Below are positions 11,686-14,607 of a stretch of 32,313 bases of DNA, in pieces. The notes under the pieces are model-generated. The model saw only the letters and a program-made list of their open reading frames with translations, was not told the origin of the DNA and did no database searches. Location of the stretch: the NCBI GenBank assembly GCA_902563095.1, contig CACEWA010000015.1, forward strand, positions 1-32,313, given 5' to 3'. Made by a program: the position numbers and the translations under genes. This DNA comes from an uncultured Candidatus Poseidoniales archaeon. Lineage in GTDB: Archaea; Thermoplasmatota; Poseidoniia; Poseidoniales; Poseidoniaceae. The first letter of the stretch is position 1, and the number at the start of each line of letters is the position of its first letter.

Positions 11686-11835
11686 TCAAGCGCCCTTGCG
11701 CTCGACATTCTTTGGACGCAATCCCTTGTATCCACACTTGCGGCAGGATGTTGCACGCATTGCATTACGAGCATTGCATTTCATGCAAATCTTCACTTGA
11801 AGCAAACGTGCCTCTGCTTCAGGGAATCTAGCCAT
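11686..11835 (-). CDS. rpl40e: 50S ribosomal protein L40e
   Basis: The 49-aa basic protein begins [13 protein letters not shown]. It carries a C4 zinc finger CMKCNARN...[12 protein letters not shown], which is the whole archaeal L40e sequence pattern and usual length (about 48-50 aa). The open frame reaches 18 codons further upstream to 11889. The ATG at 11835 is chosen because homologues start there and because a TTAAATA box (11858-11864) is centred 26 nt upstream, which fits a leaderless mRNA. It is a structural protein of the large ribosomal subunit. The gene is convergent with the prepilin peptidase and divergent from the MBL-fold gene. Confidence 0.96.
11689..11702. terminator. GC-rich hairpin at the convergent peptidase / L40e junction
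   Basis: AGCGC-CCTT-GCGCT is a perfect 5-bp GC stem with a tetraloop. It lies inside the last codons of L40e and 3 nt beyond the prepilin peptidase stop. It is a possible 3'-end structure. Confidence 0.3.
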
Positions 11836-11921: not shown

Positions 11922-12707
11922 GTGCGCATCATTAGATTGCCAGGAATACACCATGACGCTAATGCAGTCATATTCGCGGGTAGTGAGAGTAATGTATTGG
12001 TAGATTCAGGCACAACGTGGTACCAAATGCTACAGGTTGAACGAATCACAGGGCATCTGAACTACAAAAATACAGGAGAACAACTTAATCGAATCTTACT
12101 GACTAGTCGCCGTTATCCATTTTCAGGAGCTGCCAAACATATCTCCGAATCATTTGGCGATATTCCGATTCATATCCATAGCGACGCTGTTTCAGTTTTG
12201 GAAACCGGTGATTTTTACTCGACTTGGGCCAACAGATATGATTCTGATATGCCGAGTACTAAGTGTGAAACAATCGCTCAAGGGGATACTTTTGACTTGG
12301 GCGATGGAGAATTGTATGCATTATCTTTACCCGGACATTGCAGTGATGGCATGGGTTACTTCGAAAAGCAACGCGGCGTTTTAGTAACAGGTGCTGTTTT
12401 ACCCAGAGCAGACACTCCATGCAGATGGGATATGCCGGGAGGAAGCCTGCCAGAACTCATAACCTCTCTAAAGACGATTCACGACCTTTCACCAAAGAGT
12501 ATTGTTCCAGCCAGAGGCCCAACAATCAAAGGAACGCAGCGTATAGATGAGGTTCTCAATCAACATCTCAATTTCCTTGAAGAATGCCAAGATAACGATG
12601 GGGAAGTACCTAGGAGCTGGCCAAGACCTGCGAGGACCGCGTATTTCTTGACTTCAGATCCCCCTTGGCCGTTGAAAGAAAATGAAAAACTAAGCGACAA
12701 GAACTGA
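11922..12707 (+). CDS. Metallo-beta-lactamase-fold protein with degenerate metal site
   Basis: The 261-aa protein has MBL-fold topology. It contains [18 protein letters not shown] (about residues 14-31), the helix-strand [17 protein letters not shown] (58-74), [15 protein letters not shown] (135-148), [11 protein letters not shown] (152-162) and [11 protein letters not shown] near 197. At 61-68 the normal THxHxDH metal motif reads TSRRYPFS, so all three His and the Asp are replaced. The bridging Asp of the usual GD is Ala158, and the last His (PGHGP) is Arg. Only His139 remains. A hydrolase that uses two zinc ions therefore looks unlikely; a binding or structural role is more plausible. The start is GTG 11922, with GGAG (11912-11915) six nt upstream. 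The last 18 nt overlap the convergent gene. Confidence 0.8.
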
Positions 12708-13229
12708 TTTTTGACCAGTCCATGCTACAACTTTTCTTTCCCAACCTTGCTGTATATGCAAATCCTGGCCCACTATCTTTAGGGCCGATGCAGGCCCATC
12801 AAGATCAAACAAGTTCAAAACACGATTTGGAACATTAGTTCCAATCATGAATACTGAACCGTTCTCACAACCGACCAATATACTCTCACCACTAATCGAT
12901 GATGCACACAAAGAACGAATCTTGGTGTTTCCAACGACATATCTGTCTATTACTTCCATAGTGTCGAGTGAAATCAAGTTCACTCCTCCACATACATCTC
13001 CAGCAACAACTCTGTCCACCATCCCATTAGGGCCGATTAAGCCGAGCAATACACTAGCTGGCGCTGCGATTTTCACACGCCTTTGTCTATCATTCTTAGG
13101 TTTCCATACTATCGTTGCATCGTCCATTGCTACGACGCTACCACCTGCGGTAATCATCGAGCGGATCACTGTTCTCAATTGTCTCATGACAACTGAATTC
13201 ACTGCCGGGGGTCTACTTTCATTTCCCAC
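12690..13229 (-). CDS. Hypothetical protein with beta-propeller-like repeats
   Basis: This 179-aa protein is not assigned to a named family. After a short N-terminal part it contains several strand-turn-strand units typical of propeller blades: GGSVVAMDDATIVWKP, VDRVVAGDVCGGVNLISLDT, GESILVGCENGSVFMIG, and LHIQQGWERKVVAW. It could be a short WD40/PQQ-like partial propeller. There is no signal peptide or TM helix. The start is GTG 13229; an internal ATG at 13187 (residue 15, MRQLRT) is an alternative. The gene overlaps the MBL-fold gene tail to tail by 18 nt and lies 25 nt downstream of the zinc-protein gene on the same strand, so it may be in an operon with that gene and TFB. Confidence 0.65.
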   Translation of the reverse strand: MGNESRPPAVNSVVMRQLRTVIRSMITAGGSVVAMDDATIVWKPKNDRQRRVKIAAPASVLLGLIGPNGMVDRVVAGDVCGGVNLISLDTMEVIDRYVVGNTKIRSLCASSISGESILVGCENGSVFMIGTNVPNRVLNLFDLDGPASALKIVGQDLHIQQGWERKVVAWTGQKSVLVA

Positions 13230-13254: not shown

Positions 13255-13551
13255 TCAATAATGAGAGTTCATATCATCCTTGTTGTCTTTCTTCCAGATC
13301 TTGTAACATGATTTGCATACTCTAACTCGGTTTTTACGAACAGTGAATGCCCCTTCACCCCAAGTATCGATTGCATTCTCTTGACTTAGAGAACGTCCAC
13401 CCATATGTTTGTCAGCGAAACCATCACAATCCGCAATACCACAAGGTATCTCTCCGGGCTTGGCTTCTTTCTTAGCGCTAGACTTCTTTGACTTGCCAGA
13501 AGGAATCCTGACCTTGCGCTGGACACTGCTCGTTCGGCGGCTCATATACAT
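13255..13551 (-). CDS. Small basic putative zinc-binding protein
   Basis: The product is 98 aa from ATG 13551 (a TTG at 13569 would add six residues). An Arg/Lys/Ser-rich N-terminus (MSRRTSSVQRKVRIPSGKSKK) precedes a region with two cysteine pairs, CGIADC and, about 40 residues later, CKSCYKIWKK. In between is the conserved-looking GFADKHMGGRSLS. The pattern suggests a four-Cys zinc site in a nucleic-acid-binding or ribosome-associated protein, but I do not recognise a named family. A GATATAT box (13574-13580) is centred 26 nt before the ATG and sits just upstream of the TFB stop codon, which supports this start and a separate leaderless transcript. Confidence 0.7.
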   Translation of the reverse strand: MYMSRRTSSVQRKVRIPSGKSKKSSAKKEAKPGEIPCGIADCDGFADKHMGGRSLSQENAIDTWGEGAFTVRKNRVRVCKSCYKIWKKDNKDDMNSHY

Positions 13552-13581: not shown

Positions 13582-14607
13582 TCAATTCTTATCAGCTACA
13601 CCTAGACTCTTGAATAGGCCTGCGATAATACGGTTAAGTTGACGAAGAGTGACTTCTGATACCTTTGCTACTGCACAGATTTCTGCTTGAGTTCTCTTGT
13701 GTCCGCTCTCAGCTGCTGCTTTGTAAATTAATGCGGCTGCCACTCCCATTGGCTTCTTACCTTGCCACATGTCCACATGTGGCTTGAGAAGGTTCCACAA
13801 GTGTTCGACCTGTAGAGAAGTGTTTGGAGGCAACTTTAGGTCGCTGATAAAGCGACTAAAGTAATCTGATGGACATGAGATTTTGTGCATGTTAAACTTG
13901 CGTGAGATGTGACGAATCATACGTGACAACTCCTTCTCATCCACTTGGAAAGTTTCTGCAATCTCCGGAATCTGACGAGGTACGCCTTCCTTACGGGCTA
14001 CCAGATATGTGCATGCAGCAGTAACTCCTGCAATAGAACGTCCAGTGACAAAGCCTTGGTGTGAAAGAAGTTTGTACAACCTGCAGACTTCCTCTTGCAT
14101 CGACCTTGGAAGACCTGATCTGTCACGAACCATCTGGTTCGCTTTTACCAGATTACGAGCACGGCTTGCACGAGTCTTGGAGCGTTCGTCCATAACTCTA
14201 CGGCGACGCCAATCACGACGAGCTTTTGCAGACATGCCTAATCTACCAGCTGCGCTTGAGGTCAAATCTGAATTTGAGATAGAAGTGTTCAAGCCTTTGT
14301 CAGCAAGAGTATGAGTTGCTGGTGCACCGATACGGGAACGGTCTGTAGTGCTGTCGTGGTTGGTCCAGTCGATACCTGGGTCAATCACGTTCTCCTCAAC
14401 GACTAATCCGCACTCATTACATGAGACTTCGCCACGGCTGTTATCGCTTATCCAATCTACTACTCCGCACTCGTCGCAAGGCTTAGTGTGTCCGTCAACA
14501 ACTCTGCGTTGGGGGCGGCTTGAACCTAGCCCCTTGCGGGCTACATTGTCTCTCTGCATATTCTTCTTCTGCTCCGCTTCACGGCGGACTGTCTCATCTT
14601 GGGTCAT
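13582..14607 (-). CDS. tfb: Transcription initiation factor B (TFB)
   Basis: The 341-aa protein has the canonical TFB/TFIIB order. An N-terminal zinc ribbon has Cys44, Cys47, Cys63 and Cys66 (CDECG...CNECG). The B-reader/linker region contains VIDPGIDWTNHD and the basic segment RRDWRRRRVMDERSK. Two cyclin-like repeats follow, about 150-240 (FVTGRSIAGVTAACTYLVARKEG) and 245-335 (QGKKPMGVAAALIYKAA, KRTQAEICAVAKVSEVTLRQ, which holds the BRE-recognition helix-turn-helix). It bridges TBP-TATA-BRE and RNA polymerase at archaeal promoters. The N-terminal extension before the ribbon is about 40 residues, which is long and rich in charge. Many archaea carry several TFBs; this window shows only one. 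A TTATAAA box lies about 40 nt upstream. Confidence 0.97.
   Translation of the reverse strand: MTQDETVRREAEQKKNMQRDNVARKGLGSSRPQRRVVDGHTKPCDECGVVDWISDNSRGEVSCNECGLVVEENVIDPGIDWTNHDSTTDRSRIGAPATHTLADKGLNTSISNSDLTSSAAGRLGMSAKARRDWRRRRVMDERSKTRASRARNLVKANQMVRDRSGLPRSMQEEVCRLYKLLSHQGFVTGRSIAGVTAACTYLVARKEGVPRQIPEIAETFQVDEKELSRMIRHISRKFNMHKISCPSDYFSRFISDLKLPPNTSLQVEHLWNLLKPHVDMWQGKKPMGVAAALIYKAAAESGHKRTQAEICAVAKVSEVTLRQLNRIIAGLFKSLGVADKN

Follow-up and report, generated by a model that had tools for sequence, protein, structure and literature searches.

We found that a gene at positions 11922-12707 (plus strand) of an uncultured Candidatus Poseidoniales genome (contig CACEWA010000015.1, of which the 32,313 nucleotides analyzed are referred to here as the window) encodes a protein that, as judged from its sequence and predicted structure, is probably an MBL-fold pseudoenzyme comparable to CPSF100 and INTS9: the fold is kept, the metal ligands are lost, and the gene is under selection. 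The Poseidoniales are among the commonest archaea of the surface ocean. We consider it probable that the protein has been retained as a pseudoenzyme whose former pocket and C-terminal tail bind a ligand or a partner, the main rival to this reading being metal-free chemistry in the same pocket.

The frame runs uninterrupted from a GTG start to a TGA stop (coding part without the stop codon, 11922-12704, plus strand) and specifies 261 amino acids. A Pfam search of the protein returned Lactamase_B alone (PF00753, residues 13-195; E = 4.6e-7, 30.4 bits, above the curated cut-off of 22.7) and no second family. The AlphaFold2 model, for which 28 orthologues served as input, had a pLDDT of 81 and a pTM of 0.84, and its order of strands and helices was that of the MBL fold. 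Foldseek assigned it to alpha-beta-beta-alpha structures with a probability of 1.00 and a target-normalised TM of up to 0.82, the best compact matches being TTHA1623, BLEG-1, YcbL, and S. aureus GloB (E about 1e-12 to 1e-13). The original prediction, which concerned the stretch 12102-12520 (residues 61-200 of the protein), had proposed an uninterrupted frame and retained fold landmarks, and both were borne out.

Small MBL hydrolases of the GloB/YcbL type (PDB 2xf4, 7l0b, and 2zwr; TIGR03413 neighbourhood) were the best sequence-profile matches as well as being among the best fold matches, and they share the core and the order of motifs with the window protein. However, they retain the dinuclear metal set, whereas the window protein is without six of the seven ligands and carries an extra tail. 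Membership in GloB (TIGR03413) was rejected, as the window protein scored 18.1 bits against a cut-off of 200.8 and has no dinuclear metal site; an outgroup protein (L130) matched GloB with E = 1.4e-23, likewise below the GloB cut-off.

Alignment with canonical homologues, in a motif register relative to the solved GloB/YcbL structures that was confirmed by HMM alignment, identified S62, R64, P66, F67, A158, and R198 as replacements of six of the seven canonical ligands, with H139 alone left. Specifically, T61-S-R-R-Y-P-F67 (12102-12122, plus strand, as for all protein features below) stands in place of THxHxDH, with S62, R64, P66, and F67 at ligand positions H116, H118, D120, and H121. A158 (12393-12395) replaces the bridging Asp at the D221 position, which is A, S, C, T, P, or G across the crown clade of the window's family, and R198 (12513-12515), in PARGP, replaces the last His at the H263 position, which is R, Q, K, or H across the same clade. 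H139 (12336-12338), the last ligand residue, occupies the H196 position in a PGH motif. The protein thus departs from the HxHxDH + His + Asp + His pattern of metalloenzymes in the MBL superfamily and presumably holds no metal in the old site. These residues had all been named exactly in the original prediction, and its statement that only His139 remains is correct for the window protein; it does not describe a fixed feature, since several orthologous clades have Pro, Cys, Phe, or Ile at this position. The weak matches included HARLDQ-motif MBL-fold proteins (NF000405, PDB 6nc5); these too have an altered metal motif, but only some of their ligands are different, and their motif bears no relation to TSRRYPF.

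Because dozens of independent assemblies contain orthologues with the same replacements, they do not stem from chance or sequencing error. These explanations and that of a pseudogene were ruled out by intact orthologues, by dN/dS (see below), and by the further MBL proteins that this genome encodes, in which HxHxDH is retained.

The ligands were lost stepwise. In a family-profile search over the phylum, most genomes outside the order had a single full match (E 1e-45 to 1e-23). These canonical homologues, the nearest relatives found outside the order (about 210-260 amino acids), carried the full HHDHHDH set in 20 of the 20 sequences aligned, which were sampled from many families; they are without a Poseidoniales-like tail and were not beside the gene for ribosomal protein L40e in the stretches checked. 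Within the order, the ligand set of the sister family, which we take to be the Thalassarchaeaceae, was HHD[TS]HD[HR] (five or six of seven ligands), while early branches of the window's family, the Poseidoniaceae, had [CS]RNHH[PS][HFY] (two or three of seven). The crown clade had SRPFHAR and similar sets, with one ligand or none, and eight of its members had SLPFIGQ, in which all seven are gone. For an orthologue with none of the seven ligands, the MBL fold was still predicted (pLDDT 82; Foldseek E about 1e-13 to MBL structures). The sister-family loci L083-L093 and L097 have HxHxD[TS], the last His being Arg in genera g15 and g19, and represent candidate single-metal intermediates.

When the ligand columns were omitted and the 20 outgroup homologues served as the root, the resulting tree recovered the order Poseidoniales (support 100/100) and the window's family (97/94), and the early branches fell where expected. 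On this tree, H118 and D120 changed twice each, H116 four times, H196 five times, and H121, D221, and H263 eight to 12 times. Based on these counts, H118 and D120 were lost early, after which new residues became conserved at their positions, and D221 and H263 drifted. Under parsimony, a full ligand set is probable for the order's ancestor, because H121 persists in the early branches of the window's family and H116, H118, D120, and D221 persist in the sister family. The alignment of orthologues for shared substitutions, a check named in the original prediction, found them fixed in the whole family; since canonical HxHxDH homologues occur only outside the order, the substitution is not unique to this sequence.

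Purifying selection was evident in the window's genus, with dN/dS of about 0.02-0.07 in pairs with unsaturated dS, several pairs with saturated dS having been left out. Among the residues that took the place of ligands in the crown clade, P66 (100%), S62 (96%), and R64 (96%) were conserved, whereas A158 and R198 were not. For the crown clade, the mean entropy of the metal-edge loops, defined from the secondary structure of the model and with the ex-ligand columns excluded, was 0.62 bits, versus 1.52 for the remainder of the domain (Fisher p = 2e-9, which is descriptive as the rows are related). The same contrast was equally strong in the sister family, in which most ligands are kept (0.57 versus 1.29).

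It is this concentration of conservation at the edge of the former active site, and not over the core or another surface, that makes a pure structural scaffold, in which the folded MBL shell serves as an inert subunit and its pocket is without function, a very doubtful explanation. Such a scaffold does have a precedent in CPSF100 and INTS9, whose MBL domains are without the HxHxDH ligands but persist in non-catalytic subunits, dimerising with active partners (PMC4819959). However, CPSF100 and INTS9 belong to eukaryotic RNA-processing complexes and carry a beta-CASP domain, which the Pfam search did not find in the window protein. PqsE, which appeared among the PDB matches, combines the MBL fold with a second role that is regulatory and non-catalytic (PMC9715718), but it is described as an enzyme, has a different C-terminal part, and is not a metal-less family.

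Several residues, namely R5, I9, H10, H11, W33, Q35, R41, R105, S108, D109, H215, W233, and W249, were strictly conserved across the order but not beyond it, and these predate the ligand loss, as the sister family has them. H10-H11-D12 (11949-11957) is an invariant loop on the pocket side in which H10 and H11 are Poseidoniales-specific, as are the invariant W33 and Q35 of W33-Y34-Q35 (12018-12026). R105-Y-D-S108-D109-M-P111 (12234-12254) is an order-specific conserved, lid-like loop of low pLDDT. Fixed only in the crown were Q38, P66, R162 (with A163, D164, and P166), and an acidic end, E253; within R162-A-D-T-P-C-R168-W-D170 (12405-12431), the crown clade has fixed R162-A-D-x-P, and R168 and D170 are ancestral. 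The C-terminal tail (residues 225-261; 12594-12704) has no outgroup counterpart and is of low pLDDT, with W233, P236, and W249 conserved. The clustering of conserved residues in the pocket is argued from loop positions and the topology of the model.

Counting against a role in binding only is the conserved polar set in the region of the old pocket (H10, H11, D12, R105, D109, D164, R168, and D170), because a new metal-independent active site, or one with a relocated metal, would be expected to look the same. We regard it as unlikely that a new acid-base site in the old pocket (H10, H11, D12, R105, D109, D164, and D170) still catalyzes, and as no less doubtful that H10/H11/D12, R105, D109, R162-A-D164, and R168/D170 took over catalysis after stepwise metal loss and made this a new metal-free MBL-fold enzyme. 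An enzyme of this sort would be consistent with the order-specificity of H10 and H11, with the fixation of R162-A-D-x-P only after the metal ligands were gone, and with conservation in the protein being highest at the metal-edge loops. However, sister-family members with most ligands already had H10, H11, R105, and D109 as invariant residues, so that these four did not arise to replace the metals. Moreover, we know of no metal-free MBL-fold enzyme. Still less probable is a relocated or single metal site, with a metal held at a shifted position by H10/H11/D12, perhaps together with H139 or D164, by which the protein would still be a metalloenzyme. Although the loop that carries the invariant HHD triad is on the same side as the old site and H139 is retained in most members, several lineages dropped H139 yet kept the gene, and HHD is just as invariant where most of the old site survives.

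The gene was present in 57 of the 59 genomes of the Poseidoniaceae, with ligands substituted in every aligned copy, and in 11 of the 40 genomes of the sister family, all within four genera (g15, g17, g19, and g22). At nearly all loci of both families it adjoined L40e and was near AdSS, often with prepilin peptidase and transcription factor B (TFB) as well, and synteny with all four was kept through the Poseidoniaceae; the exception was g19, in which TFB is the neighbor of the MBL gene and L40e is not beside it. The conserved genomic place that had been predicted is thus a block that is syntenic across the loci of the family. In the window, L40e (11686-11835, minus strand) is indeed the direct, divergent neighbor, but TFB (13582-14607, minus strand), also described as beside the gene, is three genes downstream, with WD-like and small Zn-ribbon-like ORFs between. 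Eight sister-family genomes without the MBL gene all had AdSS next to the small Zn-ribbon gene, and L40e was beside them in seven of the eight; since the flanking genes are still adjacent, the MBL gene was cleanly lost there, or was never present. A function drawn from the neighbors L40e and TFB was rejected, as synteny of the block does not depend on the presence of the MBL gene and nearness to them therefore says little on function.

That several sister-family genera are without the gene while AdSS and the Zn-ribbon gene, and usually L40e, are still adjacent indicates that it can be lost, as would be expected of a gene in decay. Against decay or an assembly artefact are the intact frame in dozens of species, the low dN/dS, and the near-universal presence in the Poseidoniaceae; its probability is negligible overall, and for the window's family it is already refuted.

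Other features of these loci were also noted. The ORF at 12690-13229 (minus strand) shares 18 bases with the 3′ end of the MBL gene, evolves faster than its neighbors, and encodes a beta-propeller-like protein of 179 amino acids, with a weak WD-repeat match (E = 2.9e-5, below the cut-off) and too short for a full propeller. The small protein at 13255-13545 (minus strand) has two cysteine pairs (CGIADC...CKSC) and no Pfam family, and adjoins AdSS/L40e order-wide, including in genomes without the MBL gene. Two near-identical copies of the gene and its neighbors (L091 and L092) were on two contigs of one assembly (G074), probably a strain duplication. Finally, the matched stretch in three g19 genomes (L122-L124), which have no L40e beside the gene, was reported to contain one stop.

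The fixed substitutions, purifying selection, synteny, and retained predicted fold uphold the original prediction of either a retained pseudoenzyme or a metal-independent protein. In the scenario that we favor, that of a binding pseudoenzyme, the ancestor would have been a dinuclear GloB/YcbL-like MBL hydrolase, mostly in one copy and widespread in the Thermoplasmatota. On the stem of the Poseidoniales, the pocket may have been re-tooled first (H10, H11, W33, Q35, R105, S108, and D109) and the C-terminal tail acquired, with most ligands still there. The dinuclear site would then have decayed stepwise, from seven ligands to five or six, to two or three, and to one or none, as hydrolysis became dispensable. 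Selection would now keep the former active-site pocket and the tail, the most likely action being metal-free binding of a small molecule or a macromolecular partner without catalysis; the tail may provide the partner contact, and the protein may act as a sensor, chaperone, or subunit. A switch to binding would fit these data, with loops and tail changing first, the metals decaying, and the pocket staying.

Searches of one literature collection found precedents only and no paper on such a protein, which is a new family of a known kind, the MBL-fold pseudoenzymes such as CPSF100 and INTS9. It offers a nearly complete natural series, from a full dinuclear site to no ligands at all, within one mostly syntenic gene family, and in this series the pocket loops were altered before the metals were lost. 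The order in which an enzyme changes into a pseudoenzyme, and what selection keeps as it does so, thereby becomes testable.
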